Shown here: positions 6,325 through 41,118 of the stretch, piece by piece | Numbering within the stretch: position 1 is the first letter of the stretch | Layout: the number at the start of each line of letters is the position of its first letter | Source: Phototrophicus methaneseepsis | GTDB lineage: Bacteria > Chloroflexota > Anaerolineae > Aggregatilineales > Phototrophicaceae | Length of the DNA: 64,000 nucleotides | NCBI RefSeq assembly: GCF_015500095.1 | Contig: NZ_CP062983.1 | Span: 1,488,001-1,552,000, forward strand | Reading direction: 5' to 3' | Notes under the pieces: generated by a model | The model's input: the letters and a program-made list of their open reading frames with translations, nothing else | What the model was told of the DNA's origin: nothing | Database searches by the model: none | Program-made: the position numbers and the translations under genes

Positions 6325-7791
6325 CTAGCGTTCATCGGTCTTTTGGGGGACCACATCCGTCGTTTCCTGGTACCACGTGAGTAACCGATCTTGCATGGAT
6401 AGGAGCACATCCCAGTATGTCTCATCATTGATGAGATTGTGTTGTTCGGCTGGATCATAGCGTAAATCGTACAGTTCATCTTGTTCATACAGTCGGCGCA
6501 CATATTTATAGTCTGATGTGCGGCACATAGCAGCCTTAGAGTGTGTACCATCTTCGCGCCCCTGGATGCTCACACGAGGATAATATAGCGCAGCTGGATC
6601 ATAAAATGCGGCGCTTTGCTGTTCCATCGCCTGTTCTTCGCCATAGATGCGCCCACCTTCGCAGAAGACAGCGTCCCGGTGTTCATCTTGTTCCCCAACG
6701 ATGAGTGGCAGCAGCGAACGGCCAAACGAATCGTAACCGGGGTCTATGCTTAGTAAGTCGAACACCGTTGCGGAAAAATCGACAAGTTCAACCAGGGCGT
6801 CGCTGATACGTGGTTTACTGGCTACATTGGCAGGGGGCTTAATTAAGAAGGGCACATTCGTCAGACAGTCCTGGAATGTATTCTGTGTCTTTTCTACTAA
6901 GCCATAATCCCCCGTAAAGTCACCGTGATCGGAGAAGAAGAAAATCGCGGTATCGTCATAGAGGTTGGCCTCTTTTAGAGCAGAAATGACCTTGCCAAAT
7001 TGGGCGTCGACGCGGGCACACATGCCATAATAAGTCGCTCTCAGTTCATCCCAGCGCTTTTCTGTCCAGCCCTGCAAATGCTGACCTTCGGCAATGCCTG
7101 CCAGAATTTGCGGGAACGGCGACCAATCATCTGGTGCGGGGATTCGCGGGGGTAATTGATCTCGCTCAATCATGCTGAACCAGGGATCTTCCACTCCATA
7201 AGGCGGGTGCGGATAACTCAGCGGCAAATAGATACAAAGCGGTTGATCGGCTGGCGCCTGTTTAATTTGTTCGACGGCTCCATCAACCATCGCCCAATCG
7301 CTATCGTAATAGACATCATCCGCGCCTGTTTCTAGCTTACCTGCGAAAAAAGAATAGTAATTATCGCCATCTGGGGCACCGCGCCATGTATCTATGCTGT
7401 GTAGATTGGGGGCGAGCGGGCGCTGTGGCTTGTATTTCACATCGCAGTACGCATCAAAGCCATTCTGAGCAGGGACGAGATCATTTTTGCCGCCCCACCA
7501 GACGAAGTAACCGTTGTCCTTCAGGATTTTGAGCAAAACAGGCTCATCTGGGTGCAGCATATGGAACATAGTGCGGTGGCCGCGCACATGAGGATACCAG
7601 CCTGTCATGAAGGAGCAGCGGCTGGGTGTGCAAACCGGGTTCTGGCAAAAAGCATGCCGGAATGACACCGCGTCCTGCTCGGCGAAGGCATCCAGATGTG
7701 GGGTGACAGCAGCAGGATTCCCCATGTGCCCCATCACATCACCGCGCCACTGATCCGGGTTAAAAATGAGAATATTTGGACGATCTGACAT
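6325..7791 (-). CDS. Type I sulfatase (Cys-type), module A
   Basis: This 488-residue arylsulfatase-superfamily enzyme hydrolyses sulfate esters after its active-site cysteine is converted to formylglycine. The signature is CTPSR with Cys54 in NPVCTPSRCSF, followed by TGWYPH. Metal-binding segments are visible at the N-terminus (NPDQWRGD) and in the middle (FFSDHGDFTGDYG). No signal peptide is present, so it should act in the cytoplasm on imported substrate. The start is the ATG at 7791; a GTG three codons earlier is less likely. It lies downstream of the module A operon but beyond a strong terminator, so it probably has its own promoter. The exact sulfated sugar cannot be told from sequence. 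Confidence 0.9.
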   Translation of the reverse strand: MSDRPNILIFNPDQWRGDVMGHMGNPAAVTPHLDAFAEQDAVSFRHAFCQNPVCTPSRCSFMTGWYPHVRGHRTMFHMLHPDEPVLLKILKDNGYFVWWGGKNDLVPAQNGFDAYCDVKYKPQRPLAPNLHSIDTWRGAPDGDNYYSFFAGKLETGADDVYYDSDWAMVDGAVEQIKQAPADQPLCIYLPLSYPHPPYGVEDPWFSMIERDQLPPRIPAPDDWSPFPQILAGIAEGQHLQGWTEKRWDELRATYYGMCARVDAQFGKVISALKEANLYDDTAIFFFSDHGDFTGDYGLVEKTQNTFQDCLTNVPFLIKPPANVASKPRISDALVELVDFSATVFDLLSIDPGYDSFGRSLLPLIVGEQDEHRDAVFCEGGRIYGEEQAMEQQSAAFYDPAALYYPRVSIQGREDGTHSKAAMCRTSDYKYVRRLYEQDELYDLRYDPAEQHNLINDETYWDVLLSMQDRLLTWYQETTDVVPQKTDER

Positions 7792-7855
7792 AAGAAACAC
7801 AATCCAAGAAGTTATTTTGAATAAAGTATGCCGTAGATGGTAGCGCTAAAATACA

Positions 7856-7883
7856 ACAGGGAGCAACCGCGGTTGCTCCCTGT
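7856..7883 (-). terminator. 28-bp perfect inverted repeat, terminator of module A operon
   Basis: Arms of 14 bp (7856-7869 and 7870-7883) pair perfectly around a GC centre and are followed on the minus strand by TGTATTTTAG. It sits just after the stop of the second sulfatase and before the first. The T-run is short, so a regulatory palindrome is an alternative. Confidence 0.65.
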
Positions 7884-7920
7884 GGATATAACGCATTTAC
7901 CAGTTGTGGGCACTCACAAG

Positions 7921-9396
7921 TTACAGTTCATCCGGGTGCCGTTTGGCTAACTTCTCAGCCGCTGCAGCGCGACCAGTGGCCTTTAAGCGTTCGATATACT
8001 GCGGCAGTCGTCCGCGTGTATAAAAAGGCCCACCTTCACGCATGACAGTCATGAGCGGATCAACATCATACTTGCTGGTGAACATCTGATTTTGCTGCCA
8101 CTCTGCCAATAAGCTCATGGCCTTATCGGCCACATGTGGCAGTTCATCCACCAGATTGGTTTCTTCGTGCGGGTCTTGGGTCAGGTTGTACAGCATGACC
8201 TCATCGAGGTCTTTATAGCCGTCGTGATACGTCCTCAGGCAGATGTAATCATCGCCCTGGTAATCAAAGCGTACCCCTCGCTGGCAGGACCATGTGCCCT
8301 GGCTGGTCACCACGTAATCGCGCCCGCTTTCTTCACCTGTGCGGAACGCCTCCGCGAAGGATTGACCATCCCAGTTATCCGGGACTGTACCGCCGAGCAG
8401 TTCAATGGCTGTAGCGGCCCAATCGAAGTGATAGTGCAGGGCGTTATCGACGCGCTCTGTTTCGCTGATACCCGGCCAGCGGATGAGGAGCGGCACTTTA
8501 CAGGTGATTTCATCGGCTGTTTGATGATCGCCCCAGATGTTCAGTTCACCGATATTCTCGCCATGATCAGCCCCGATGACGATGATGGTGTCTTCATAGA
8601 TGCCTAAATCTCTGAGTTTATCGATAATACGGCCGACCCACAGATCTGCATAGAGGATGCCCGTATCGTAGTTATCGACCCATTTACGCACAGCATCCAT
8701 CGAATCAATGCTGTTGAGGTGGCGTGGTAAGGTCGGGAAGCCTTCCTCACCTGTGAGGCCGTTAGGCTCCTGGGCGCTGTGAGCGCCGAAGCCGTTCCAG
8801 CAGCGCTGCCACATCTCTTCTGTGAACCACTCCGGCAGCGGATCATCCGCGAAGGGCTCGCCAAAATCTTCCGGTGACCGGAAAGGTGTGTGTGGGTCCC
8901 ACAAGTTGATGTGCAGGAACCAGTTTTCGTCCTGTCCGTTGCGCTCCAGCCAATCGAGCGCGACAGGGGCGATTTCGTCCGCGCGTTCACCGCCATTTTT
9001 GCCCGTGTTGTAAATTTCGTTAAAGCTAGCGTACCAGTGCCATGCCGCGTGTCGCTGCCCAAATGGGCTGATGGTGACTGTTTTCATGCCTGTTTTGGCG
9101 AGGGCCTGCATCCAACCTGTGCGGCTGAAGACATCCTGGTGCCCGCGATTGCGCCCCTCAATATAAGGCTGGGACGCGACGCCGCCATGGTTCACGACGC
9201 CAGTATGGAAGCCTGTACGCCCACTCCAAAGGGCTGTGCGCGAGGGCAGACAGGGCGCGTCAGAAATATAGATGTTGGTAAAGCGTGTGCTTTCTTTAGC
9301 CAGTTGATCAATATGAGGGGTCGTGTTGCGATGATAGCCATAGCAACCCATATGGTCGGGCCGCAGGCTGTCAATATCAATATAAAGTAGACGCAT
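7921..9396 (-). CDS. Type I sulfatase (Cys-type), last gene of module A operon
   Basis: A 491-residue sulfatase. The formylglycine motif is CLPSR with Cys49 in DAPCLPSRTALWSGR. Conserved metal and substrate segments include DIDSLRPDHMG at the N-terminus, NLWDPHTPF, and IGADHGENIGE in the second half. The ATG at 9394-9396 has AAAAGGA 7-8 nt upstream. The gene follows the larger sulfatase by only 24 bp and is therefore co-transcribed with the transporter genes. It shares little beyond the family motifs with the other sulfatases here, which suggests different positional specificity on the same sulfated glycan (inference). No export signal is seen. Confidence 0.9.
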   Translation of the reverse strand: MRLLYIDIDSLRPDHMGCYGYHRNTTPHIDQLAKESTRFTNIYISDAPCLPSRTALWSGRTGFHTGVVNHGGVASQPYIEGRNRGHQDVFSRTGWMQALAKTGMKTVTISPFGQRHAAWHWYASFNEIYNTGKNGGERADEIAPVALDWLERNGQDENWFLHINLWDPHTPFRSPEDFGEPFADDPLPEWFTEEMWQRCWNGFGAHSAQEPNGLTGEEGFPTLPRHLNSIDSMDAVRKWVDNYDTGILYADLWVGRIIDKLRDLGIYEDTIIVIGADHGENIGELNIWGDHQTADEITCKVPLLIRWPGISETERVDNALHYHFDWAATAIELLGGTVPDNWDGQSFAEAFRTGEESGRDYVVTSQGTWSCQRGVRFDYQGDDYICLRTYHDGYKDLDEVMLYNLTQDPHEETNLVDELPHVADKAMSLLAEWQQNQMFTSKYDVDPLMTVMREGGPFYTRGRLPQYIERLKATGRAAAAEKLAKRHPDEL

Positions 9397-9420
9397 CGTT
9401 AAATCCTTTTGTATGAAGTT

Positions 9421-11157
9421 TTACGCTCCGGCGACGCGGGGCATCCAAACAGGTTCCATCCCCATTCGCCCGAACAGCAGTGCCTGGACCATCTTTGCGC
9501 GGATGTCTGCATAATCCGCATCATCCCATAGATTAACTGTTTTAGCCGGGTCTGTGATGAGGTTGAACAGTTCATAACGCGCTTCTTGCGGGTGATAGTT
9601 CATCTGGTACGGGCCGCTGTTGTAACTCTTGATATACATCGACGCTGTTTTGTTGGGCCGGGCTTTGGCAGCGTCGCTTAACGGCTCTTCCTTGAGCATT
9701 TCAGCCGTTAAGAATTTTTCCATCAGCGCGGCGCGCAGTTCCGGCTCATCCTGCCACAGGTTGTTCAGCTCGTTCGGGTCTGCTTTGAGGTCGAAAAGTT
9801 CCCCGTAGGCTCGGTTATAGTACACCGTGAGCTTGTAGCGATCATCAATATAGGTCTTGAGATAGAGTGTGGTTGGCTGATGCCGATTCTCGACAATGAC
9901 GTGCTGCCGGCCTATTGTGCTGTCGCCGTTCCAGATGGCTTGTTGATTGTGCCCGGTCATGTCATCTGGAATATCCAGCCCACAATAGCCGAGGAATGTG
10001 GGGGCATAATCGACGAGTGTTTGCAGGGTATCGCTGCGTTGGCCCGCCGGGATTTGCCCTGGTAGCCGGGCAATCATCGGTACTTTGATGCCATCGTCAT
10101 AGTGGAAAGCGCCTTTTGCGATGAGCCCATGCTGGCCGAAGTAATGCCCATGATCGCTTGTGAAGACCACCAGTGTATTTTCTGCGAGCCCAAGCGCATC
10201 CAGGTGATCCACGATACGGCCAATGTACTTGTCCATGCAGCTAATCATGCCATAGTAAGTGGCGATGTTTTTTGCCAGCTCATCGCGATCATGCAAATGC
10301 GAGTGATAGCCATGCATAGCGTTTCCGTTTATCTCCTCCCATCCTGAAAAATCGGGGTTCTCTTGCTGGGTCATCTGGTGAGCAGGCGGGTTCTTATCGT
10401 GCTCGCCAGGGACGACCTGCGGCACTGTGATACTCTCCGGGTCATACATCGTATCCCATGGCTCTGGCACGAGATAATCCGGGTGTGGGTCGAAGAAGCT
10501 GGCCCACATGAAGAAAGGCTCGTCTTTTTCCTTAAAGTCGCTGATGAGCGCATTCGTCCGTTCAGCAATCCAGGCATTGTAATGATATTCTTCCGGGATG
10601 AGCCACTTTCGCCGTTGAGAATCATTATTCCCGGTTGGTGAGCGGAAATAATCACGCCAGTTGGTCAGGCCCTTTTCTTCCATCCACAGCACATAATGCT
10701 GGCCGACATGCGCCTCATCCGTATGATTGCGGGTTAGCTCCACATGGTCGAAGCCGTAAAATGGCCCTTCAAAATCTTGCCAGAAGGTGAAATCTTGCAG
10801 CAGGGGATATGATTCCAACGAGGGGAATTCTTCCGTCCCACGCAAAGGCTGGAAGTGCGCCTTGCCGACCAGCGCCGTCTGGTAGCCCGCTTCCTTGAAG
10901 CGCTCGCCAACTGTTGGCTCATCTTCAGGCAGTTTGGTGCCCAGGGAATAGGCCCCGTTCTGGCTGGGGTACTTGCCTGTGATGAGGCAGGCTCGCGTTG
11001 GCGTACAGGTGGGGTTTGGGCAGTAAGCCCGTGTGAAGAGCGTGCCCTCATCTGCCAATTTATCCAGATGAGGCGTTTGTATCTCCGGGTTGAGACTTCC
11101 TAATGTATTCCAGTGCTGCTGATCAGACGTAATCAGCAGCACGTTGAGCTTTGTCAT
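9421..11157 (-). CDS. Type I sulfatase (Cys-type, CTPTR variant)
   Basis: At 578 residues this is the largest sulfatase here. The N-terminus LNVLLITSDQQHWNTLG carries the metal-binding acid. The active-site motif is CTPTR with Cys51, differing from the classic CxPSR by threonine in place of serine. FTSDHGHYFGQHGL supplies the second metal site. The C-terminal part contains two short blocks on the same theme (LFDLKADPNELNNLWQD and LFNLITDPAKTVNLWDD), the typical sulfatase C-terminal signature, apparently duplicated. The ATG is at 11157. The gene follows the MalG-type permease by 57 bp in the same transcript. The substrate is a sulfated sugar of unknown type. Confidence 0.88.
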   Translation of the reverse strand: MTKLNVLLITSDQQHWNTLGSLNPEIQTPHLDKLADEGTLFTRAYCPNPTCTPTRACLITGKYPSQNGAYSLGTKLPEDEPTVGERFKEAGYQTALVGKAHFQPLRGTEEFPSLESYPLLQDFTFWQDFEGPFYGFDHVELTRNHTDEAHVGQHYVLWMEEKGLTNWRDYFRSPTGNNDSQRRKWLIPEEYHYNAWIAERTNALISDFKEKDEPFFMWASFFDPHPDYLVPEPWDTMYDPESITVPQVVPGEHDKNPPAHQMTQQENPDFSGWEEINGNAMHGYHSHLHDRDELAKNIATYYGMISCMDKYIGRIVDHLDALGLAENTLVVFTSDHGHYFGQHGLIAKGAFHYDDGIKVPMIARLPGQIPAGQRSDTLQTLVDYAPTFLGYCGLDIPDDMTGHNQQAIWNGDSTIGRQHVIVENRHQPTTLYLKTYIDDRYKLTVYYNRAYGELFDLKADPNELNNLWQDEPELRAALMEKFLTAEMLKEEPLSDAAKARPNKTASMYIKSYNSGPYQMNYHPQEARYELFNLITDPAKTVNLWDDADYADIRAKMVQALLFGRMGMEPVWMPRVAGA

Positions 11158-19307: not shown

Positions 19308-21572
19308 ATGGCTGCTTCGCCGACGACAACAGAAAAAATCCGCGCTCTACCCTGGAGCCTCGCAGGAGGTGCTGCTAACTCGGTCTTTGCTCAACTGACA
19401 TTTTTTGGCTCGACCTTTATCCTCTTTCTAAGCGAACTCAACATTAGTACCGCCCAGATCGGTTTTTTGCTTTCTTTGCTGCCTTTTATGGGTTTGGTCG
19501 CTTTATTCATTGCACCGACTGTGGCGCGCTTTGGCTTTAAGCGCACGTTTCTGACGTTTTATGTTTTGCGTAAAGTGATTACTGCTTTTCTTATGGCGCT
19601 GCCCCTGGTGATGGTGCAGTTTGGCCCTGAGGCGACATTAATCGCTGCTGCGCTCATCGTCTTTGGCTTTGGCTTATGTCGTGCCATCGCTGAAACAGGC
19701 TACTATCCCTGGGTGCAAGAATTTATCCCAGGCTCCATGCGTGGCAAGTTCTCAGCGACGAGCAACGTCTTCGGCAATTTGGCGGCGATTGCGGCTGTTG
19801 CCCTTGCCAGTTATGTCTTGGCGCTGCCGGGTGGCCTGGAGCGTTTCCAATTCCTCTTTGTCGTTGCTGTGGGGTTTGGCTTCCTGGCAATCTGGTTTTA
19901 TATGCGTGTACCCGGTGGTGCGCCTGCAGACCCGGACGGGGCCCCACCCGCAACGTATGGGGATATGCTGCGCACGCTGCGCGATAACAATTTACTTCTT
20001 TACTTGGCCGGGTTTGCCCTGATTACCTTTGCGACGGGGCCGCTGCACTCTTTTTTGCCGCTATTCATGGAAGAACATGTTGGCCTGACGACAAGCCAGA
20101 TTGTGCTGCTCTCAACGGCGAGTATGGTTGGCGCGCTGATTTTATCGAACCTGCTGGGTTGGTCTGCGGACCGGTACGGTAGTAAGCCCGTGATGCTGGT
20201 CGGGGTGGTGTTCTTCGCCCTGCTGCCCATTGGCTGGATGCTCATGCCGCGTAATAGCCCGTTGAGCCTGCTTTTCGCACTGGGGATTGCTTTCTTCCAG
20301 GGTATTGCCGGTACGGCATGGATGGTTGGCTCTGGGCGTTTGTTGTTCGTCAGCGTGGTGCCAGATGCTGAAAAAAGCCAGTATATGGCCGTTTACTACG
20401 CCGCAATTGGCATTATCGGCGGTGTGAGCCAACTGATCGGCGGTAGCTTGCTCGATGCTTTCAGCTCCATTTCAGGCCAATTCCTGTTCTTGTCGCTGGA
20501 TGCCTTTACGCCGCTGATGATTGCTGGCATCGTCTTACCGCTGCTCAGCTTGTTGGTATTCCAGCGCGTGCGCTCTGATAGTGAAGTCACGGTTGGTGAA
20601 TACGCAGGGATGTTTGTACAGGGCAACCCGATCTATGCCCTGGAGAATCTTGTTCGCTTCTATCGTGCCCGTGATGAGCGTTCCGTCGTCGTCATGACAG
20701 AGAAGCTTGGCAAGGCCAACAGCCCCCTGACTGTCGATGAATTGCTGGAAGCCCTGGCTGATCCTCGCTTTAATGTGCGCTTCGAAGCCATTATTTCTAT
20801 AGCGCGTATGCCATCGCACCCCAGGCTGACGAAAGCGTTAACTGAAATTCTATTGGGTACGGAGCTTTCGCTTAGCAATGTCTCTGCCTGGGCACTGGGC
20901 CGTATTGGCGACCCTGATGCGGTCGCGGCGCTGCGTGCTGGCCTAAATTCAGAGTATCGGTCTATCCGTGCCCACTGCGCGCGCGCATTAGGGACGCTCA
21001 AAGATATGGAGGTTAAGCCGCTTCTGTTGGAGCGCCTCCTCGTCGAAGAAGATAAAGGCTTGCAAATGGCCTATGCGGTTGCGTTGGGTAATCTCCATTC
21101 TGTCGAAGCCATGGCGAAGCTCCATAGCCAGCTCATCCAGACGGAAAATGAAGGCGCGCGCATGGAACTCGCGCTTTCGCTGGCGCGCATTGCTGGCCGT
21201 GAGAGTGAATTCATCAGCTTGCTGCGGCAGATGCGCAGCGACCCAGGGACCGGGGCGGCCCAGGCGATGATTAAGATTCGCCAGCGAGTCAACAAAATCG
21301 CCTCGCCAGAAACGCGTAAGCTCCTAATCGCTGCTTCTGACGCCTTTGCAGTTGATGACCTGGATGGCGGGGCGGCTTACCTCGTTGAACTGGTGCGGGC
21401 GCTGCCTTCCCCAACCGATGCAGATGAAGGGACTTATCGCCTGCTGCATTATTGTGCCGATGACCTTGTCGCGCATAAAGCATCGCGCATTGAGCTGCTG
21501 GTGCTGATGCTGCATGTGCTGCAAACAGATTTCAGTGATTCACCGCATCATACGATTCAACCCGATGCATAG
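19308..21572 (+). CDS. MFS transporter fused to C-terminal HEAT-repeat domain
   Basis: A 754-residue protein. Residues 1-420 form an MFS permease with about 12 helices, including the loop VARFGFKRTF and the mid-protein LLGWSADRYGSKPVML motif. Residues 475-640 consist of HEAT-like helical repeats: LADPRFNVRFEAIISIARM, then VSAWALGRIGDPDAVAAL, IRAHCARALGTLKDMEV and MAYAVALGNLHSVEAMAKL. A normal MFS protein ends near 400-450 residues. With an even helix number the HEAT domain faces the cytoplasm, where it may bind a partner. AAAAGG lies 8 nt before the ATG. The transported substrate is unknown. Confidence 0.88.
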   Translation: MAASPTTTEKIRALPWSLAGGAANSVFAQLTFFGSTFILFLSELNISTAQIGFLLSLLPFMGLVALFIAPTVARFGFKRTFLTFYVLRKVITAFLMALPLVMVQFGPEATLIAAALIVFGFGLCRAIAETGYYPWVQEFIPGSMRGKFSATSNVFGNLAAIAAVALASYVLALPGGLERFQFLFVVAVGFGFLAIWFYMRVPGGAPADPDGAPPATYGDMLRTLRDNNLLLYLAGFALITFATGPLHSFLPLFMEEHVGLTTSQIVLLSTASMVGALILSNLLGWSADRYGSKPVMLVGVVFFALLPIGWMLMPRNSPLSLLFALGIAFFQGIAGTAWMVGSGRLLFVSVVPDAEKSQYMAVYYAAIGIIGGVSQLIGGSLLDAFSSISGQFLFLSLDAFTPLMIAGIVLPLLSLLVFQRVRSDSEVTVGEYAGMFVQGNPIYALENLVRFYRARDERSVVVMTEKLGKANSPLTVDELLEALADPRFNVRFEAIISIARMPSHPRLTKALTEILLGTELSLSNVSAWALGRIGDPDAVAALRAGLNSEYRSIRAHCARALGTLKDMEVKPLLLERLLVEEDKGLQMAYAVALGNLHSVEAMAKLHSQLIQTENEGARMELALSLARIAGRESEFISLLRQMRSDPGTGAAQAMIKIRQRVNKIASPETRKLLIAASDAFAVDDLDGGAAYLVELVRALPSPTDADEGTYRLLHYCADDLVAHKASRIELLVLMLHVLQTDFSDSPHHTIQPDA

Positions 21573-21639: not shown

Positions 21640-22719
21640 CTAGGTCCAGATCAGGGATTGTTCCGTCTTTGGATCGAAGAATTGGGCTTTTTCAGTATTG
21701 AGGTGCAAACCAATGGTATCGCCCGTCTGGATTTCCAGCTTGGGGTCAGCCAGGGCGATAAGCCGGGTATCGCCAACGCGCACATCAATCATATCATCGC
21801 GGCCCAGCGGCTCCACAATATAGACTTCACCGCGAATATCGCTATCCGCATCAACGACGACATCTTCTGGACGGATGCCCATCGTCACAGTATCGCTGTA
21901 TGCCAGTGCGTTTGCTGCGCGGCTGCTATCAACGGACATATGCATATCGGCATTGGTGGCGACGGGGCCACTGCCATTCTGGCTCACATCGACATTGAAG
22001 AAGTTCATCGGCGGGTTACCGACGAAGCCGGCAATGAAGAGCGTCTTGGGCCGTTCATAGAGGCCATCTGGCGTATCGAAGGCTTCCAGCTTACCCTGGT
22101 TCATGACGGCGATACGGTCTGCCATCGTCATCGCCTCAACCTGATCATGTGTGACGTAAATGGACGTAATGCCCAGGTCGCGCTGCAAGTGTTTGATCTC
22201 GCCGCGCATGGTCAGGCGCAGACGGGCATCCAGGTTGGAGAGCGGCTCATCGAATAGGAGTAAATCAGGCTCTTTGACGAGGGCACGCCCCAGGGCGACA
22301 CGCTGCTGCTGACCGCCGGAAAGCTGTGCAGGTCTGCGGTCCAGCAAATGGCCGATGCCCATGACATCTGCCGTACGTTGGACGCGCTGCTGCTGTTCCT
22401 TCTTTGAGACGCCTTTCAGCTTCAGCGGGTAAGCGATGTTGTGGAACACGGTCATATGCGGATAGAGCGCGTAGCTCTGGAAGACCATGCCAATATTGCG
22501 TTCACGCGGCTGCATCTGGTTGACGACCGTCTCGCCAAAGCGAATCGTCCCGGATGACGGTTTGTAGATGCCTGCGACCATTAGCAGGGTCGTGGTCTTG
22601 CCACAGCCAGAAGGCCCTAAGAAAGCGACGAACTCGCCATCCTGGATATCCAGGTCGAGCGCTTCTACAGCGGTGACGCTGCCGAATTTTTTGCTGAGAT
22701 TATCAATGAGGACTTCCAT
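21640..22719 (-). CDS. CUT1 sugar ABC transporter ATPase (MsmX/UgpC/MalK type)
   Basis: A 359-residue ATP-binding subunit. Walker A is GPSGCGKTT, the Q-loop is FQSYALYPH, the signature is LSGGQQQR, Walker B is LLLFDEP and the switch His is in THDQ. The C-terminal 120 residues form the OB-fold regulatory domain seen in MalK/UgpC (MGIRPEDVVV). It is the last gene of its importer operon and the only ABC ATPase in the window, although three CUT1 permease pairs are present. MsmX-type ATPases are known to serve several importers, so it may energise modules A and B too (inference). AGAAGG lies 7 nt before the ATG. Confidence 0.95.
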   Translation of the reverse strand: MEVLIDNLSKKFGSVTAVEALDLDIQDGEFVAFLGPSGCGKTTTLLMVAGIYKPSSGTIRFGETVVNQMQPRERNIGMVFQSYALYPHMTVFHNIAYPLKLKGVSKKEQQQRVQRTADVMGIGHLLDRRPAQLSGGQQQRVALGRALVKEPDLLLFDEPLSNLDARLRLTMRGEIKHLQRDLGITSIYVTHDQVEAMTMADRIAVMNQGKLEAFDTPDGLYERPKTLFIAGFVGNPPMNFFNVDVSQNGSGPVATNADMHMSVDSSRAANALAYSDTVTMGIRPEDVVVDADSDIRGEVYIVEPLGRDDMIDVRVGDTRLIALADPKLEIQTGDTIGLHLNTEKAQFFDPKTEQSLIWT

Positions 22720-22730: not shown

Positions 22731-24293
22731 CTACGTACTGCCTTTGGTACCACCTGCATAAATATTGAGCAGGTACTCCTGGGCGAAGACGAATAAGATC
22801 AGGATGGGGATGAGCTGATACACGCCAACGGCTGCGACCTGGTTCCAGTTCACAGGCTGCATCGCGCCCGTCAGGTCATTGATGAGCACGGGCAGGTTGC
22901 TGGTTGTCGTGCCCAGCATGAACGTCGCCGGGACGAGGTACGCATTCCAGCCGCTCAGGAATGAGAAGACGCCTAGCGCCAGCAAGCCGGGGCGAATTTG
23001 GGGGAGGATGATCTCGAAGAAGGTCCGCCAGCGCGTCGCGCCGTCAATCATAGCGGAGCGCTCCATATCCCAGGAGATCCCATCGAAGAAGCCCTTCATC
23101 AACCACACGCCCAATGGTAGCTCAAAGGCCACCATGATCAGCGCCACGCCGCCAATTGTGTTATAGCCAAACAGCCCGCCCAACAGCGGCACCTTGCCGA
23201 TATTTTGCATCACGATGAAGATCGGGATCAGCAGCGTAACCGCCGGGAAACTGTGCAGCACCAATGTCAGCGAGAGGAAGCCGCGCCGCCCAGGGAAGTT
23301 CATACGCGAGAGCGCATACCCCGCCATCGAAGATACCAGCAGGACGATGACGGTCATAACGACCGCGATGAGCAGAGAATTCAGCGTGACGCTGATAATA
23401 TCGACTTGCAAGCGCCCGCCGATGGACCCACCCAGGAAGCGCCAGTTATCCAGCGTCAGGCCGCCTATATTGCCAGAAGCATCGACGGGGAGCAGCCCTT
23501 CTGTTCGCTGTGAGAAGGTCGCTAGCAGCAGCCATGCATAGCCGATGAACAAGGGCAGGGAGAACGTCACCAGCAAAATATAAGGCACCCATCCTAACGG
23601 TACGGCCAGCGCTACCAGCGCTGTAATCAGCAGGGCGCCATAACCCGCGATGATCGTGTTCATGTCCACGCCGCTTACCAGGGTAACGGTAACCGGGATT
23701 TGCTGTTCTTCGCCATCACGCAGCAGCCTGAAGCGTAAGATGGCACCTTCTCCAGCCTGGATAATGGCGGTTTCAAGCCCGGCTTTGTCGACGTCATCAC
23801 GCCGAATAGCCGTAATGACGTCGCCCACCTGGATACCGGCTGTTTCTGCCGCGCCACCTGGTTCTAAGCCGGTGACGAGCACGCCATCGTCAGCCTGTTC
23901 TGTCGTGAACTGTACCGATGTTTGGGTACCAAATGCGCCGCTTTGTGTCAGATACTGCTCACCAACGATGAGCGTTTGGGCCACGAGGGCGACCAGAAGT
24001 GTCAGCACAATCGCCAGCAGACGATTATGCCGCATCACATCGCGCACGCGCAGCGCCACGACGATCACCACAGCGAACGGCAGCCCAAAGACCAGCAGAT
24101 CGCTCAGGAGGGTCGTGAAGGATTCTTCTACACTGACAGCCGCTGTTGCCGAGGCCAATATATTGCGGAAGAACCAGCTTAGCGCCAGCATGGCAATCAC
24201 TAGCAAGACGACATCGCGCAACAAACGCAGCAGCGCGGTATTCAGCGAGACAGGTTCAATGGGTTTTTCGGACGTAACCGAGTATGTGCTCAT
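22731..24293 (-). CDS. CUT1 ABC permease (MalG type) with N-terminal helices and PDZ domain
   Basis: A 520-residue permease, nearly twice the usual MalG size. Helices near 26-41, 62-82 and 91-110 precede a PDZ-like domain at about 126-205 (GVLVTGLEPGGAAETAGIQV, then GDVITAIRRDDV). Further helices at 212-232 and 235-257 lead into a standard MalG core. The EAA loop is ERSAMIDGATRWRTFFEIIL at about 411-430. Counting helices places the PDZ domain outside the cytoplasmic membrane. The ATG at 24293 overlaps the stop of the upstream permease by one base (TGATG). It may bind a C-terminal tail of a binding protein or protease, but no partner is shown. Confidence 0.88.
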   Translation of the reverse strand: MSTYSVTSEKPIEPVSLNTALLRLLRDVVLLVIAMLALSWFFRNILASATAAVSVEESFTTLLSDLLVFGLPFAVVIVVALRVRDVMRHNRLLAIVLTLLVALVAQTLIVGEQYLTQSGAFGTQTSVQFTTEQADDGVLVTGLEPGGAAETAGIQVGDVITAIRRDDVDKAGLETAIIQAGEGAILRFRLLRDGEEQQIPVTVTLVSGVDMNTIIAGYGALLITALVALAVPLGWVPYILLVTFSLPLFIGYAWLLLATFSQRTEGLLPVDASGNIGGLTLDNWRFLGGSIGGRLQVDIISVTLNSLLIAVVMTVIVLLVSSMAGYALSRMNFPGRRGFLSLTLVLHSFPAVTLLIPIFIVMQNIGKVPLLGGLFGYNTIGGVALIMVAFELPLGVWLMKGFFDGISWDMERSAMIDGATRWRTFFEIILPQIRPGLLALGVFSFLSGWNAYLVPATFMLGTTTSNLPVLINDLTGAMQPVNWNQVAAVGVYQLIPILILFVFAQEYLLNIYAGGTKGST

Positions 24294-25300
24294 CACAGAA
24301 CCTCGATCTTGGGTTCTGAAACCAATTCGTTGAAGCGGAAGACCCGCATATAGATGAACGCCAGCGCCACGCCGATCACCACCAGCACGACCGAGAAGGC
24401 CGCCCCATAGCCCCACTGCGTATTGCCGAAATAGTTTGACAATGCACGATGATAAGCCGCCAGGGCCCAGACTTCTGTCCGGTTGCTAGGGCCGCCATTC
24501 GTTAAGAGCAAAATCTGCTCGAAGGAGGTTAGCAGCGAGAGCGTCTGATAGGTGATGACGAATAATAAGGGCCAGCGCAGCGATGGCAAGATCACATAAC
24601 GGATGCGCTGCATGATCGTTGAGCCGTCTACCAGAGAGGCATTCATAATATCTTTGGGGATCGACTCAATCGCTGATGTAAAAATAATCATGCCAAAAGA
24701 GACGCCGACGAAGCCATTTACCAGGATGACAAGCACCCAGGTATGGTCGCTGCTGTAATCAACAGGGGCTTGCCCTGCGAGCGTATTAAACCAGTTTAAG
24801 ATGCCAAAAGGTACATCCGCGACGATACGCTCCCACATCATGATATAGATCACAGAACTGGTGATACGCGGCAGCATCCACATCGCGCGGAAGAAAAAGC
24901 CAGCTTTACGTGGAATGTGGGCTGTCAGCAGCGAGACGACCAGCGCCATAGAAATATTGAAGATCGACAGTGTGCACAGCACGTAAAAGATCGTGTTGAA
25001 GAACACTTTCGACGCGAAAGGATCATTGGCGAGCGTCTGATACTGGCGGAGGCCGACGAACTGCCATTCTGCGATGTTCGTGGTGAAGTTATCCGTCGCC
25101 AGGTTGGTCATACTCATGAGCACGACCAATATCATCGGGATGAAGAAAAACAGAACCACCAGGATGCCCGCCGGAGCCAGAAAGCTGTAGGCTGTCAGGT
25201 TAGCGGCGAGGGCACGGCGGCGGCTTCGTTCGTTGGTGTCGGTATCATGCCCATAGGGGGGAGATTGCTCTCCCCCCTGGGTTGTTTGTGTTGATGCCAT
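24293..25300 (-). CDS. CUT1 ABC permease, MalF/UgpA type
   Basis: A 335-residue membrane subunit with six helices after a polar 35-residue N-terminus containing RSRRRALAANLTAY. The docking loop is atypical: IMNASLVDGSTIMQRIRYVIL, with asparagine for the first glutamate of EAA. It is encoded between the binding protein (28 bp upstream) and the PDZ permease (one-base overlap). No clear Shine-Dalgarno precedes its ATG, so translation may be coupled to the upstream gene. Confidence 0.92.
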   Translation of the reverse strand: MASTQTTQGGEQSPPYGHDTDTNERSRRRALAANLTAYSFLAPAGILVVLFFFIPMILVVLMSMTNLATDNFTTNIAEWQFVGLRQYQTLANDPFASKVFFNTIFYVLCTLSIFNISMALVVSLLTAHIPRKAGFFFRAMWMLPRITSSVIYIMMWERIVADVPFGILNWFNTLAGQAPVDYSSDHTWVLVILVNGFVGVSFGMIIFTSAIESIPKDIMNASLVDGSTIMQRIRYVILPSLRWPLLFVITYQTLSLLTSFEQILLLTNGGPSNRTEVWALAAYHRALSNYFGNTQWGYGAAFSVVLVVIGVALAFIYMRVFRFNELVSEPKIEVL

Positions 25301-25328: not shown

Positions 25329-26660
25329 TTAGCGGATGATCACATCAGGCAGCTCGTTCTGGAGCTGTGCGACAGCCAAGTCAACGGCTTCTTGCGGGGT
25401 AGCTTCGCCGGAATGTGCGGCAGTGATACCCGTCCAGTATGCATTGGACCACGCATTCCAGCCCGGGTTATTCGGTGCGGAGGTGGTGTAATCCAGCATA
25501 TAGTGCGCGCCGCTCAGGAAAGGATCAGCCTGATATTCTTCTGATTCGATCTGACTCTTGAGGATACCCAGGTGGAAGCTATCCAGCGCGTGGCGGTTGT
25601 TGGCTTCTGGCGTGGTCACGGCAGCGAGGAGCGCCATAGCCACTTCCGGGTTTTCGCTCTGGCTGCTGATCATATAGCTCAGCGGGTGGGTCAGGGTCAG
25701 GGCTTCGCCGCTGCTCATAGCCGGGAAGAGCATGAAGCCGATATTTTCTTGCAGGTATTCCGCGCCGCCGAGGTCTGCAACGTAGTTACGCGCCCAGTCG
25801 GCCAGATGCCAGATACCACCTTGATCGAAGAGGACGGTCTCGCCAGGGGCGACTTCTGTATAGATGGCGGGGCCTTCCATGCCGATCATATCTTCACGCG
25901 TCACACCGCGTGCGACGAAACTGGCGATCAATTCATAGGTTGCCAGGGCTGCGTCTGTATCAAAGACGACGTTGCCTTCTTCATCAATGACTTCGCCACC
26001 CATACCATAGTAGTAGGTCAGCCAGTCGAAGCCGTTGGACGGACGATGATAGTAGCCTTTGCCGGCTTCTACGACGCCTTCATTGACGGCCTGTTCAGCG
26101 GTATCCAGCATATCTGCGAATGTGAATTCACCAGCCGCAACGCGTTCCGGCAGGCTGTCGATTTCTTCCTGGCTCCAGCCGAGGTCGCTCAGCAGCAGCT
26201 TGCTGTAGAAGATCGGGCGTGCTTCTGCATCCTGCGGCACACCCCAGACTTGCCCGTTCCATGTTTGTGAAACCCACAGATTTTCGACAACGTCTTCAAA
26301 TTCAGGATGTTCAGCAATCATGTCATCCAGCGGAATGATGAAGCCAGCCGGTGCCCATGCGCCGATGTCTTCATGGCCGGAAAGGATGATGTCCGGGGCT
26401 TCGCCAGCTTCTGAGGCCAGCACGAATTCCTGCTTGTAATCGCCCCAGCTTTTGTTGTCCTGGATGAGCGTCAGATTGATATCCACACCCATCTCGGCTT
26501 CGACTTCTTCTTCAACTTCGGCGAAGTTATCACAACGCCAGCCTTCGCCACCTTCAACATTGGCGATACAACGCACCGTGATATCGACGGTATCTTGAGC
26601 ACTCACCATAACGGCTGTCAGTGCCAACATAACAAGTGTTAACAGACTAATTTTCTTCAC
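25329..26660 (-). CDS. Sugar ABC transporter substrate-binding protein
   Basis: A 443-residue MalE-like binding protein. The start is a GTG at 26660 with AGGAG 7 nt upstream; the next codons give a clean signal peptide KKISLLTLVMLALTAVMVSAQ cleaved after the alanine-rich end, with no lipobox. DIILSGHEDIGAWAPAGFI is the family's sugar-pocket region. It heads the second CUT1 operon (binding protein, two permeases, ATPase). The N-terminal mature part has two cysteines (RCIANVEGGEGWRC) that could form a disulfide. The ligand is unknown. Confidence 0.9.
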   Translation of the reverse strand: MKKISLLTLVMLALTAVMVSAQDTVDITVRCIANVEGGEGWRCDNFAEVEEEVEAEMGVDINLTLIQDNKSWGDYKQEFVLASEAGEAPDIILSGHEDIGAWAPAGFIIPLDDMIAEHPEFEDVVENLWVSQTWNGQVWGVPQDAEARPIFYSKLLLSDLGWSQEEIDSLPERVAAGEFTFADMLDTAEQAVNEGVVEAGKGYYHRPSNGFDWLTYYYGMGGEVIDEEGNVVFDTDAALATYELIASFVARGVTREDMIGMEGPAIYTEVAPGETVLFDQGGIWHLADWARNYVADLGGAEYLQENIGFMLFPAMSSGEALTLTHPLSYMISSQSENPEVAMALLAAVTTPEANNRHALDSFHLGILKSQIESEEYQADPFLSGAHYMLDYTTSAPNNPGWNAWSNAYWTGITAAHSGEATPQEAVDLAVAQLQNELPDVIIR

Positions 26661-35193: not shown

Positions 35194-36777
35194 ATGGAAT
35201 CTGCACGGGGACAGACCAATTCAGAAAGTCGGTATCAATCTACGGCTCTTTTTTACAGCATTCTTTTTATACTGATTGGCGTTGCCATACTTATTGTATT
35301 TGCCTTGACTGTCGCGAATCATCCGGCGATCCAATCCATCCTGAATTGGCAGCCCACAGAAGAATCACCACAGCAACCTTCGCTGATTCTGGCTTTTCTG
35401 GATCGATTTGGCATCGTGCTGCCCCTGCTCATCATTGGCCTGGGGACGATATATATTTCAATCGGGGCGCGGCTGCGCTCTCGGCAGATTGGCGCTGCGA
35501 AGTGGGCCCAGATCGTGCTGATGTGGTCTAGCATTGGCGCGGCGATCCTGGCGATTTTAAACAGCATCAACCTGATCCAGACGATCCTGGCACGGGATGG
35601 CACCGGTTTCACACTCTCTGAGGCGCTGCCTGTTCTTTTTCTGATTGGCTTAGCCGTCCTATTGTTCATCGGCTTTATGATGATCAGCCGCATATTGGAT
35701 ACCGTCTTTGCCGGGAACGAAGCCCTGCTGAACTCAGAGACACGCTTTGCATGGAACCTGCTTATTCCGACGCTGCTGATTGTGATTATGGTTGCGGCGC
35801 GCCCCCTGGAGCAGACTTTCATCCGTAGCCTGACGGATAAGCGCTTTGCTGGGCGAGAGGTGCCGAACTTCGTCGGTTTAGATAATTATGCAAATCTACT
35901 CGGCATCCGCTTTGATACCGTCCCCTGCCGTATTGATGACGAAACGGGCGGCTGTGTCGTCCGGGACGATGGTTCAATCCGCTGGGAATCCATCGACCGC
36001 ACCTTATTAGAAGACGGCTATCGGACCCTCAGCAATATTCCACTCCCTGGTGGGGAGGTCGCCCAATCACTAGCCATTAGCGGCCTGGACCGTGATTTCT
36101 TACAGGGCATCCGTACGACGCTCGTCTTTACGCTTTTTTCCGTCTCTCTGGAACTCATCATCGGCCTTTCTATGGCGATGATTGTCAACTCAGATTTTCG
36201 TGGACGAGGTTTTATGCGAGCGGTGATGCTGGTCCCCTGGGCGATCCCAACTGTGATTTCTGCAAGGTTATGGGAATTGATGCTCAAAGATACGAGCGCG
36301 GGTATCGTCAACAAAGTACTGATGGACTTACACGTCATTTCAATGCCGCAGGCGTGGCTTTCCGATCCATCTTTGCAGATTCCGGCGGCGATTATGGTCG
36401 ATGTCTGGAAGACGGCCCCTTTTATGGCGCTCCTGCTGCTGGCTGGCTTGCAGACGATCCCCAAAGATTTGTATGAAGCGGCCTCCGTCGATGGGGCTTC
36501 GCGCGTGCGCACCTTCTTTAACATCACGCTGCCGCTGCTGCGGCCCACGATTGGCGTGGCGCTGGTCTTCCGTACATTGGATGCACTGCGTGTCTTTGAC
36601 CTGTTCAACGTCTTATTCGGGCGTCAGCAGCTTTCAATGGCGACCTATAATTATGAAACGCTCGTCAACAATCAGCAGGATGGCTACGCTTCTGCAGTCA
36701 GTATGATTATTTTCGTGCTGATCTCCATCTTCGCCTTTGTGTACGTCCGCCTGTTGAATGTGGAGACTGATTCATGA
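35194..36777 (+). CDS. CUT1 ABC permease, MalF type with extra N-terminal helices
   Basis: A 527-residue permease. Four additional helices (FYSILFILIGVAILIVFALT; LPLLIIGLGTIYISIG; IVLMWSSIGAAILAIL; VLFLIGLAVLLFIGFMM) precede the usual first MalF helix. A long external loop follows (FVGLDNYANLLGIRFD, with two cysteines), reminiscent of the P2 loop of enterobacterial MalF. The EAA loop is YEAASVDGASRVRTFFNITL. AGGAG lies 7 nt before the ATG. The stop overlaps the next permease start in an ATGA junction. Confidence 0.92.
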   Translation: MESARGQTNSESRYQSTALFYSILFILIGVAILIVFALTVANHPAIQSILNWQPTEESPQQPSLILAFLDRFGIVLPLLIIGLGTIYISIGARLRSRQIGAAKWAQIVLMWSSIGAAILAILNSINLIQTILARDGTGFTLSEALPVLFLIGLAVLLFIGFMMISRILDTVFAGNEALLNSETRFAWNLLIPTLLIVIMVAARPLEQTFIRSLTDKRFAGREVPNFVGLDNYANLLGIRFDTVPCRIDDETGGCVVRDDGSIRWESIDRTLLEDGYRTLSNIPLPGGEVAQSLAISGLDRDFLQGIRTTLVFTLFSVSLELIIGLSMAMIVNSDFRGRGFMRAVMLVPWAIPTVISARLWELMLKDTSAGIVNKVLMDLHVISMPQAWLSDPSLQIPAAIMVDVWKTAPFMALLLLAGLQTIPKDLYEAASVDGASRVRTFFNITLPLLRPTIGVALVFRTLDALRVFDLFNVLFGRQQLSMATYNYETLVNNQQDGYASAVSMIIFVLISIFAFVYVRLLNVETDS

Positions 36778-37616: not shown

Positions 37617-37652
37617 TGCGTTTTCACTGTTTAATAAAGGACTCGATTGCCT

Positions 37653-38939
37653 ATGACCAACCTCATTGTCATTGATTGCCATGACCTCGGACAGCATCTC
37701 GGTTCCTATGGTGCGAAGACAGTTGCTTCGCCCAACCTGGACCAAATTGCCGCCAGAGGGGTCCGTTTTGAAAATAGCTTTTGCACATCGCCGCAGTGCA
37801 GCCCCAGCCGTGCAGCGCTCTATACCGGGCGCTATCCGCATTCAAATGGCATGATGGGGCTTGCGCACGATCCCTTTTCCTGGCGCTTACATGATGATGA
37901 AATCTATCTTGCGAAGTATCTCCAGGATGCGGGCTACGAAACAGCTCACCTTGGCATTCAGCATGTGACCGGGTTCGATAATGAAGCGGATGTGCGCGCA
38001 CTGGGCTTTGATCATCTGCTGGAAGGGCACTTCGCGGCAGAAGTCGGGGAATCTGCGGTGGCCTTCCTCAACCAAGCGCACGACAAACCCTTCTTCTTGA
38101 ATGTTGGCTTCTTTGAGCCGCATCGGGATGAGACGGGGGGCTATCATGTTGCGCCGCCTGATGACAGCCTGGGCGCAGATGTGCCACCTTATTTACCCAA
38201 CACGCCGGAAGCCCGCCAGGAATTCACCGAACTACAAGGCATGATCCACGCCATGGATCGCGCTGTCGGGCGCATCTGGGAGACGCTGGCATCGCTCGAC
38301 CTGCTCAAGGATACCTGGCTCATCTTCACAACTGATCACGGGTTGGCAATGCCACGTGCCAAATGCACCATGTATGATCCCGGCCTGGAGACGGCACTCA
38401 TCATGTACGCGGAGCCGTTTGGGTTCACAGGTGGCCGTGTGATTTCTGAACTTATCAGCCATGTGGATTTCACGCCGACGATCCTGGAAGGCCTGGGTAT
38501 TCCCGTGCCGGAGCGCTTGCAGGGGCGCAGTTATTGGGGCCTGCTGCAAGAGGGGGATTATGAACCACGCCAATTCATCATTGGCGAAAAGACGTATCAC
38601 ACGGATTACGAACCGCAGCGTGCCATACGCACAGAGCGGTATAAACTCATCGTGAATCTGGAAGTCGATATTACCAACGTCCCGGCGGATATTATGCATA
38701 GCCCGATTTATCCGCAGATGATCGACCAGTTGACCGTCACACGGCCCTATGTAGAGCTGTACGACCTGGAAAACGATCCGCTTGAGCAGCATAATCTAGC
38801 GGGTACAGCAGATGTGCAATCTATCGAAGCAGATTTGCTGCACCAGCTTAAGGCGTGGATGGTGGCGACAGATGACCCCATCCTACAGGGGCCGATTGCC
38901 TCACCCTATTACGATCGTGCGCTGGCGAGATTGGAGTAA
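37653..38939 (+). CDS. Type I sulfatase resembling sulfamidase (N-sulfoglucosamine sulfohydrolase)
   Basis: A 428-residue Cys-type sulfatase. The motif is CSPSR with Cys49 in CTSPQCSPSRAALYTG. The segment HSNGMMGLAH just after it, and FFEPHRDETGG later, resemble the sulfamidase branch, whose human member has HQNGMYGL and HDPHR at the same places. That would mean cleavage of N-sulfated or related amino sugars; this is a resemblance, not proof. The ATG at 37653 is used; a TTG at 37647 is better spaced from AAAGGA and is an alternative. There is no signal peptide, so the substrate is probably imported by the adjacent transporter. Confidence 0.87.
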   Translation: MTNLIVIDCHDLGQHLGSYGAKTVASPNLDQIAARGVRFENSFCTSPQCSPSRAALYTGRYPHSNGMMGLAHDPFSWRLHDDEIYLAKYLQDAGYETAHLGIQHVTGFDNEADVRALGFDHLLEGHFAAEVGESAVAFLNQAHDKPFFLNVGFFEPHRDETGGYHVAPPDDSLGADVPPYLPNTPEARQEFTELQGMIHAMDRAVGRIWETLASLDLLKDTWLIFTTDHGLAMPRAKCTMYDPGLETALIMYAEPFGFTGGRVISELISHVDFTPTILEGLGIPVPERLQGRSYWGLLQEGDYEPRQFIIGEKTYHTDYEPQRAIRTERYKLIVNLEVDITNVPADIMHSPIYPQMIDQLTVTRPYVELYDLENDPLEQHNLAGTADVQSIEADLLHQLKAWMVATDDPILQGPIASPYYDRALARLE

Positions 38940-38947: not shown

Positions 38948-39868
38948 ATGGTCTATGATGCGCTCGTCTATGGGCCGCTCTTCTGCGACCTGATCTTCAC
39001 TGATTTACCGGATATGCCCGTCCTGGGGGAAGAAATCTTCGCCGGGGATATGAAGATCACGGTTGGGGGCAGTGCGATTGTGGCTGCTGCCCTGCACCGT
39101 CTGGGGGCGAAGGTTGGCCTCATTGCGGATTTGGGCAACGACCAGATGAGTACCGTTGTTCAACATCTGCTGGAAGACATGGGCCTGGATACCTCGCTCA
39201 TCCGGCACCACGATTACGCCCTGCCACAACTCACAGTCGCGCTCTCCTTCCCGCATGATCGCGCGTTTGTCACCCGCTTTGAGAAGCCACGCGATCCGCT
39301 GGATCTGGGTGCTGTCCTGGCTGCGAACCCGGCCAGGCATCTACATGTGTGCAGCTTCATGGCGGCATTCGATACCCCGGAAGCGCCCCACATCGCCCAT
39401 GAGCACAATATGTCTGTCTCGCTGGACCTGGGCTGGGATAGTGAGGGCCTGCGTGATCCTAAATTACGCGCTATGATCGCTGAAGTTGATATGTTTATGC
39501 CCAGTCGTTCTGAGTTGTGCCACGTCATGGGAACAACCGATAAACAGGCCGCGCTTGATGCGACTATCAGCCTGATGGGTGAGGATGCCGTCGTCATCAT
39601 GAAGGATGGTAAACATGGTGCACTGGCCCGCACGCATTCAGAGACAATCACTGTCCCTGCGGTGCCTGTCACGCCAGTGGATACCACTGGGGCGGGCGAT
39701 TCGTTCGATGCAGGTTTCATTTACGGGCATACTCAGGGATTCTCATTAGAGACGAGCCTCCAATATGGCAGTATCTGTGGCGCATTGGCGACGACTGCCC
39801 CCGGAGGCGCAACCGCAACACCCACACAGGAGGAAGTACAGCAGTGGCTGTTAAAATTGCAATCATAG
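38948..39868 (+). CDS. PfkB-family sugar kinase
   Basis: A 306-residue ribokinase-like enzyme. The first signature region is GGSAIVAAALHRLGAKVGLIADLGND. The ATP/catalytic signature is DTTGAGDSFDAGF, with the catalytic Asp in GAGD. It follows the sulfatase by 8 bp and overlaps the GH4 gene by 25 bp. In this operon it probably phosphorylates a desulfated monosaccharide in the cytoplasm. Specificity within the family (ribose, fructose, KDG, tagatose-phosphate and others) cannot be read from the sequence. Confidence 0.9.
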   Translation: MVYDALVYGPLFCDLIFTDLPDMPVLGEEIFAGDMKITVGGSAIVAAALHRLGAKVGLIADLGNDQMSTVVQHLLEDMGLDTSLIRHHDYALPQLTVALSFPHDRAFVTRFEKPRDPLDLGAVLAANPARHLHVCSFMAAFDTPEAPHIAHEHNMSVSLDLGWDSEGLRDPKLRAMIAEVDMFMPSRSELCHVMGTTDKQAALDATISLMGEDAVVIMKDGKHGALARTHSETITVPAVPVTPVDTTGAGDSFDAGFIYGHTQGFSLETSLQYGSICGALATTAPGGATATPTQEEVQQWLLKLQS

Positions 39869-41118
39869 GGGGCGGCAGTGCCTATGCCCCTGGCCTTCTG
39901 GGCGCTTTTATCCATAAAGCCCAGGACTTCGACGGGGCTGAACTGGCGCTGATGGACATTGCCGAAACGGAACTGGCGATTGTACATCGCCTGGGTCAGA
40001 AGATGATCGAGGCGGCACATGTGAATTTGACACTGACCGCGCATACAGATTATCGCTCTGCACTGGCAGATGCCGACTACGTGCTGACCACGTTCCGGCA
40101 GGGTGGTTTTGAAGCGCGTGCTCAGGATGAGCGCATTCCTTTACAATACGGCATCATCGGTCAGGAGACGATTGGTCCGGGTGGCTTCTTCTTCGCCATG
40201 CGTACCATTGGCGTTGTTCGTAAGCTGCTGGCAACCATCAAAGAGGTGGCTCCCAGGGCTGTACTCGTCAATTATTCGAATCCGACGCAAATCATCGCGG
40301 AAGCTGTGACGCATTTTTCTGATGTGCCCTGTATTAGCATCTGCGACCAGAGTGACGATGACCAGCGTAAAATCCTGGATGCGCTCAATATCACGCCGCA
40401 GCATGTCGAGTTTGAGTCAGTGGGGCTTAATCATGCCACATGGAGTACGCGCTTTCTGGTCGATGGCGAAGATGGCATCGAATTGATGCTGCGCGGGTGT
40501 GAAGATGTGCTGGCGCGGGACGACATCAGCAATCGCCTTAAGCGCCAATTCATGATGACGCGCGATTTTGGCCGTGTGCCCAACAGCTACATGCAGTATT
40601 ACTATTATCGTCAGGAGACCGTTGCAGAAGCCCAGGCCGCTCCTAAATCACGCGCTCAGGAAATCATGGACCTGATCCCCAGTTACTACGTCCATTTTGA
40701 GGAACAAGCCGCCCAGGACGTCCCCCATGTGACCCATTCTCGCGGTGGTTCAATCTTTGGGGATATGGCCGTAGAGGTGCTGCGTGGGCTTGTGCAGAAC
40801 AACCAGAGCATTCATACACTCAATATTCCCAACCGGGCCGCACTGCCGGATTTCGCGCCTGATCGTGTGGTGGAGGTCCCGGCACGGCTTGAAAGCCGCA
40901 ACGCAACGCCCTTAGCACAACATCCGCTGCCGCATGAGGTGACGGGCTTGCTGCATATGCTGGCGGAATATCAATGGCTATCTGCTAAGGCCATCTGGGA
41001 AGGCGATACGCGCCTCAAAGAACTGGCGCTGGCCTCTAACCCCTTGGTGATGTCCGTCCCGCTGGCGAGAAAGCTCCTCGCAGAGATCGAACCCTTGCAA
41101 AAGCAGTATTGGGGCTGA
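39844..41118 (+). CDS. Glycoside hydrolase family 4 enzyme
   Basis: A 424-residue NAD- and metal-dependent glycosidase of family GH4, which cleaves by an oxidation-elimination mechanism. The NAD-binding GGGSAYAPGL motif is at the N-terminus. NYSNPTQI, the cysteine metal-ligand region ICDQS and GLNHATW are family landmarks. The residue after the metal cysteine is Asp, not the His of galactosidase/glucuronidase types, and resembles some phospho-glucosidase branches. It starts at a GTG at 39844 with AGGAGG 10 nt upstream, inside the end of the kinase gene. Co-translation with the kinase fits a phospho-sugar substrate (inference). Confidence 0.9.
   Translation: MAVKIAIIGGGSAYAPGLLGAFIHKAQDFDGAELALMDIAETELAIVHRLGQKMIEAAHVNLTLTAHTDYRSALADADYVLTTFRQGGFEARAQDERIPLQYGIIGQETIGPGGFFFAMRTIGVVRKLLATIKEVAPRAVLVNYSNPTQIIAEAVTHFSDVPCISICDQSDDDQRKILDALNITPQHVEFESVGLNHATWSTRFLVDGEDGIELMLRGCEDVLARDDISNRLKRQFMMTRDFGRVPNSYMQYYYYRQETVAEAQAAPKSRAQEIMDLIPSYYVHFEEQAAQDVPHVTHSRGGSIFGDMAVEVLRGLVQNNQSIHTLNIPNRAALPDFAPDRVVEVPARLESRNATPLAQHPLPHEVTGLLHMLAEYQWLSAKAIWEGDTRLKELALASNPLVMSVPLARKLLAEIEPLQKQYWG

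Follow-up and report, generated by a model that had tools for sequence, protein, structure and literature searches.

Three helices precede the P2 domain in MalF, a membrane subunit of the maltose importer. The first outer loop of its partner MalG reportedly contacts the binding protein MalE in Escherichia coli, going by a paper title (Daus 2007). In the Ugp system, the glycerophosphodiesterase (GDPD) is UgpQ. To our knowledge, PDZ domains are normally absent from the membrane subunits of MalG-type importers. In E. coli, MalF has a periplasmic P2 domain (residues 91-271) that makes contact with MalE (PMC3150292). Here, we describe an operon of Phototrophicus methaneseepsis (Chloroflexota), found in a 64,000-nucleotide stretch of its genome (the window), whose MalG-type permease carries an N-terminal PDZ module.

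The operon has the order malE-malF-malG(PDZ)-malK and lies on the minus strand throughout. It encodes a MalE-type binding protein of 443 aa, whose signal peptide has no lipobox (25329-26660); a MalF-type partner permease of 335 aa (24293-25300), without a P2 domain by profile search; the MalG-type permease of 520 aa (P0001; 22731-24293); and a MalK/UgpC-type ATPase of 359 aa (21640-22719), also assigned by profile search. The frames of malG and malF overlap, base 24293 being common to the start of the former and the stop of the latter. The frame, strand, and length of malG are exactly those of the preliminary description. Elsewhere in the window, the gene at 19308-21572 (plus strand) encodes an MFS transporter that continues into HEAT repeats at its C-terminus, with MFS_1 and HEAT_2 both scoring above cut-off, and sulfatase-like genes and a family 4 glycosyl hydrolase lie near two further ABC operons (6325-11157, minus strand; 37647-38939 and 39844-41118, plus strand). 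The sulfatase assignment is confirmed by Pfam for both genes scanned (9421-11157 and 37647-38939).

The permease identity proposed earlier for the malG product is borne out by its core domain, its operon partners, and its core fold. Pfam finds BPD_transp_1 at residues 321-507 (E 4.3e-13; 49.8 bits against a cut-off of 26.4), and the NCBIfam MalG model matches the core with an E value of 6.8e-31, its 107.9 bits falling short of the cut-off, which is 261. Upstream of the core, PDZ (PF00595; residues 132-179, E 1.8e-7) and PDZ_2 (PF13180; residues 131-203, E 3.5e-7) both exceed their curated cut-offs, the PDZ_6 match stays below its own, and NCBIfam models of Deg/HtrA proteases match residues ~99-206. 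The Pfam matches of the 520-aa protein include no protease domain such as the trypsin-like one of HtrA/Deg. In the whole genome there are 10 matches to PDZ_2 and 123 to BPD_transp_1. The nine PDZ_2 matches outside this protein have coordinates that overlap none of the 123, so the other importers of this genome lack a PDZ. A second permease in the window, a MalF-type protein of 527 aa (35194-36777, plus strand), has some four extra hydrophobic stretches before its core, as judged by eye, and no PDZ match.

Within P0001, three additional transmembrane helices (residues 17-51, 59-89, and 91-116; 23946-24245, minus strand), placed by predicted secondary structure and charge bias, are followed by the PDZ domain (residues 123-207; 23673-23927, minus strand), then by a fourth extra helix (residues 211-230; 23604-23663, minus strand), seen in the AlphaFold2 model, and finally by the standard MalG core (residues 236-520; 22734-23588, minus strand), which begins with TM1 (residues 236-260). 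The core is recognized by Pfam and by fold, and PDZ-less relatives align only from about its start. The AlphaFold2 model was built on 43 aligned sequences and has a mean pLDDT of 68.7. Over residues 21-220, block values are 79-93, except for 68 at residues 51-60; over the PDZ region (121-210) they are 85-93, with the PDZ strands and helices running from 123 to 207. The pLDDT falls to 64 at residues 221-230 and is poor in the core, presumably because the alignment is shallow. In VIA-align comparisons, residues 123-207 superimpose on the PDZ domains of HtrA2, DegQ, and HhoA with Z scores of 14.8-15.6 and rmsd values of 1.0-1.2 Å over 80-84 residues at 24-32% identity. The core matches E. coli MalG (Z range, 15.2-16.3) with a Z score of 16.3 and 3.0 Å over 158 residues, longer alignments covering 236-259 residues at 4.8-6.1 Å, and Foldseek likewise returns the MalG fold. 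The PDZ fold named in the preliminary description is thus upheld by Pfam, AlphaFold2, and VIA-align, with the domain limits moved from about 126-205 to 123-207; extra helices are indeed present, as stated there, in the number of four (three before the PDZ and one after) instead of three.

A cytoplasmic N-terminus together with the helix count would place the PDZ domain outside and leave MalG TM1 in its normal orientation. Charges averaged over 43 rows (the window protein and 42 homologous PDZ loci) agree: the loop at 83-93 has 3.3 Lys plus Arg against 0.8 Asp plus Glu, as expected inside, and the loop at 44-62 has 0.6 against 2.8, as expected outside. The 20-residue N-terminus is uninformative by charge (2.0 against 3.1). 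Helix count and positive-inside bias both support the earlier placement of the PDZ outside the membrane, and they lead us to infer that it is extracytoplasmic and near the translocation path.

The protein is a genuine, conserved domain fusion found in one group of Chloroflexota. A genome scan from which the best 80 of 577 relatives were kept, so that its 42/38 split is not a frequency, returned the full module in 42 loci and a core-only match in 38. Many of the 42 are close relatives, and a single subclade holds 23. All 42 come from other genome records, and in each of these loci from the best 80 of 577 relatives one frame runs continuously through the junction. Homologues splitting into two genes, which the preliminary description named as the sign of a misjoin, number 0 of 42, with L016 and L049 cut by contig ends. 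At E≤0.001, 42 of the 43 rows match PDZ_2 and all 43 match BPD_transp_1. PDZ-less frames are 290-315 aa long in 34 of the 38 core-only loci; in the four longer ones the frame overlaps malF (L054, L071, and L079) or has an insertion (L083). Among the best 80 of 577 relatives, the gene order E-F-G-K is alike in PDZ and PDZ-less loci wherever the contig shows it, and the 42 PDZ loci include malE in 40, malF in 41, and malK in 39. Two contigs begin after malE (L016 and L041), two end early (L014 and L049), and L020 has no malK within 6 kb after malG. The expectation of a conserved fusion that always accompanies the same binding-protein gene therefore holds for 40 of 42 loci, the other two being those whose contigs begin after malE.

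A survey of 396 genomes of the class, with at most 7 candidates scored per genome, detected the full module in 13, all of them in the order of the window genome: 12 of 28 genomes of its family, 1 of 9 from other families of the order, and 0 of 359 elsewhere. All carriers have it in frames of 519-589 aa, so that no free-standing module was seen in these 396 genomes. An assembly or annotation artefact that joined two genes, with these 13 genomes and the 42 continuous frames among the best 80 of 577 relatives against it, has negligible probability, and misjoined genes are ruled out. In the order as a whole, 19 of 81 genomes have a close match to the core, 18 of them in frames of 519-596 aa, seven of which were called fused from frame length alone; the one exception, G396, has a PDZ-less gene of 369 aa. 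Strict confinement to the order may be called into question by loci labelled Thermoflexus (L019 and L040) and Bacteroidetes (L044), all from metagenome bins with labels as deposited. A phylum-wide sample of 400 genomes had the module (E≤1e-20) in one, the window's own; it says little about the frequency of the module because none of the other carriers known from the class survey turned up in it.

In a tree of the MalG core (80 rows, L049 left out, unrooted), the PDZ rows form one side of a single branch with support of 92/80, just short of the program's star. Next to them, at the end of a very long branch, is L083, which is PDZ-less; its gene equals that of G396 in length and Pfam scores and may be identical to it in sequence. 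One change on this tree would be enough to explain the split between PDZ and PDZ-less permeases; since the tree is unrooted, we can only infer that this was a gain rather than a loss of the module.

The partner permease differs from E. coli MalF as well. Against the MalF model, the match of the window's MalF is confined to positions 280-517 of 520, beyond the stretch occupied by P2, which indicates that this protein has no P2 domain. Similarly short MalF proteins are encoded in PDZ-less relatives (325 aa in L053 and 304 aa in L084), so lack of P2 is no peculiarity of the PDZ clade. In MalG itself, the alignment gives the first outer loop a median of 25 residues in the 43 PDZ rows against 18 in the 38 PDZ-less rows, with exceptions on both sides (20 in one PDZ row and 27 in one PDZ-less row). 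The PDZ-less sister proteins L139 (1495-2604, minus strand) and L083 (1415-2524, plus strand) are also altered in this loop, by a partly hydrophobic insertion of ~70 residues, and the loop change may therefore predate the PDZ. That MalE docking has moved from MalF to MalG by way of an HtrA-type PDZ on a four-helix anchor, allowing PDZ-controlled capture or gating by another extracytoplasmic protein, appears rather doubtful to us.

If the PDZ domain has a partner, MalE is the candidate that we tentatively favour, being the only other exported protein common to all PDZ loci able to show it (40 of 42, among the best 80 of 577 relatives). Its C-terminus, suggested in the preliminary description as a peptide ligand, finds no support in a comparison of the tails or in the MalE fold model. 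The tails, compared by eye, are similar in PDZ and PDZ-less operons; residues 431-443 have a pLDDT of ~96 in the MalE model and are thus predicted to be ordered; and the last residue is Arg, Lys, or Gln in every PDZ locus where the true C-terminus is visible. Charge complementarity is likewise absent, both proteins being acidic, with mean net charges of -50 for MalE and -5 for the PDZ. The C-terminus of MalF ends in a hydrophobic residue and so bears a closer resemblance to a PDZ ligand, but PDZ-less operons share it and, in the topology of MalF, it is expected to be cytoplasmic. In one PDZ operon (L010, 3619-4955), MalE is encoded in two overlapping frames, possibly through a frameshift, and on contig C23 of G400 it is also in two pieces.

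The domain could alternatively recruit some other extracytoplasmic protein, such as an HtrA-type protease, a surface enzyme, or a cell-wall protein, through its C-terminal peptide and so couple import to it; the preliminary description had named an envelope protease or a surface assembly. The HtrA-type fold speaks for this, as do five positions that appear groove-like by reading (126, 127, 129, 173, and 177) and keep their character across the 43 rows; 127, 173, and 177 are hydrophobic in all 43, their assignment to the groove again being by reading. Position 126, however, is Ser in 42 of the 43 rows where HtrA domains have Gly, a loop match likewise made by reading, and no protease or surface gene is common to the flanks of the 42 PDZ loci within 6 kb on each side, though such a partner may be encoded elsewhere. 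Overall, we consider this recruitment unlikely. Among frames of at least 130 aa within the same 6 kb, no neighbour beyond malE, malF, and malK is common to more than 22 of the 42 loci, the commonest flanking clusters being GDPD (22 loci), the fatty acid desaturase family (15), the Meth_synt_2 family (14), and aldo/keto reductase (10), each named from a Pfam scan of one member.

Identity to the window protein averages 66% in the core, 48% in the PDZ, 26% at residues 21-115, and 23% at residues 207-235, so the PDZ has been kept while its membrane anchor drifted. This bears on the idea that the module serves structure or assembly, stabilizing MalG or its insertion with no exchangeable ligand. The window protein P0002 and the MalF proteins of Caldilineaceae loci have extra hydrophobic N-termini without a PDZ (as judged by eye), which indicates that the group tolerates N-terminal additions and would suit such a role, but a mere scaffold is harder to square with a PDZ that is better conserved than the helices holding it; a purely structural function is on the doubtful side.

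The binding proteins bring in a further alternative, in which the PDZ stands in for a lost lipid anchor and tethers a freely secreted MalE. As read by eye among the best 80 of 577 relatives, all 35 PDZ loci with a readable signal region encode a MalE devoid of a lipobox, as against a Cys where a lipobox would have one in 24 of the 26 PDZ-less loci whose N-terminus is visible; the PDZ-less exceptions are L077, which has an N-terminal hydrophobic anchor, and L084, and L053 is non-canonical. The split is, however, genome-wide. The lipobox is absent from all 30 binding proteins read of the 40 listed in the window genome, and from all 8 read of 21 and all 7 read of 30 in two other PDZ carriers (G232 and G400, respectively); it is present in all 8 read of 40 and all 7 read of 49 in G443 and G444, the Caldilineaceae genomes of the PDZ-less loci L057 and L059. 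The PDZ-less G396, of the same order as the window genome, has it in none of the 16 binding proteins readable of 19. The link between PDZ and lipobox is thus not specific, since other binding proteins of those genomes show the same split, and, with this control failed (all binding proteins read from genomes of the order are without a lipobox, whether a PDZ is there or not), anchor replacement is very improbable. SBP_bac_1 proteins are without a lipobox in all those read from four genomes of the order, though the window genome has matches to Lgt and LspA.

As for the cargo, a GDPD gene (PF03009; the single member scanned has an E value of 5.3e-31) directly follows malK in 23 of the 35 PDZ loci that have at least 1 kb to inspect, among the best 80 of 577 relatives. 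In two more (L022 and L043), it overlaps malK by one base more than the adjacency cut-off. With these slight overlaps counted, it is adjacent in 22 of 22 testable loci of one subclade and in 3 of 13 outside it (L010, L018, and L047). Of 32 PDZ-less loci among the best 80 of 577 relatives, 6 have a GDPD gene on the same strand within 3 kb, and in 2 of these it is adjacent; the query for this search was a single PDZ-clade protein, so that the result leans towards that clade. No GDPD gene lies beside the window's own operon. The GDPD of L033 (8630-10072) has an N-terminal stretch, ~250 residues long, without a Pfam match at E≤1e-5, and BLAST finds relatives of this stretch in 30 of the 80 loci kept as best of the 577 relatives. 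A diol/glycerol dehydratase (one member scanned) forms a flanking cluster in 6 loci. In the window, UgpC is the top-scoring model for the ATPase, though its 423.2 bits do not reach the curated cut-off (432); for the binding protein it is the MalE model, with a score well short of cut-off. Gene context and profile scores weakly suggest a glycerophosphodiester rather than maltose as the cargo; of the "sugar permease" in the preliminary description, the permease stands and the sugar is doubtful, given the GDPD neighbours.

The reading that we tentatively favour, and hold to be possible if short of probable, is a type I ABC importer of the MalFGK2 type in which an acquired PDZ module on MalG would dock MalE in the manner of P2, with cargo of the glycerophosphodiester type. 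MalG would have gained the membrane-anchored module in the ancestor of this Chloroflexota clade, and the PDZ would keep the cognate MalE close to the permease through a P2-like protein-protein contact, probably of a surface or strand type and not by capture of the MalE C-terminus. More loosely, the cargo may be a glycerophosphodiester or a related phospho-compound, which the GDPD encoded next door in some relatives might cleave inside the cell. P2-like docking is suggested by the shared MalE, the MalF without P2, the longer MalG loop, the conservation of the PDZ over its flanks, and the hydrophobic positions read as a groove; it is weakened by a MalE tail that is not PDZ-specific and is predicted to be ordered, by the acidity of both partners, by the short MalF of PDZ-less operons, by the exceptions in loop length, and by the other importers of the genome, which have no PDZ. 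If true, docking of MalE by a PDZ on MalG would be a new kind of docking module for ABC importers. The PDZ-less sister operons offer natural controls for studying the acquisition of a docking domain and its effect on the capture of the binding protein.

Searches of the open-licence PMC literature found no paper on a PDZ domain carried by an ABC permease, and as far as that literature goes the fusion appears to be undescribed. Its components do have known counterparts. From ~277 or 279 to 518, the core matches the MalG/SugB chains 2r6g_G and 8ja7_B by sequence, and the core does so also by fold, but those chains have 274-296 residues and no PDZ module. The PDZ has the fold of its counterparts in HtrA2, DegQ, and HhoA but, unlike in the HtrA/Deg proteases, is fused to a permease and accompanied by no protease domain. 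The operon resembles the Ugp importer of glycerol-3-phosphate and glycerophosphodiesters in the best match of its ATPase (UgpC) and, in part of the relatives, in the GDPD gene after malK; it differs in that the UgpC score is below cut-off and the binding protein is closest to the MalE model. E. coli MalF with its P2 domain, finally, has a comparable order of parts, in which helices lead into a folded outer domain and the core helices come after it; in the present operon, that outer domain is a PDZ carried by MalG, next to a MalF without P2.
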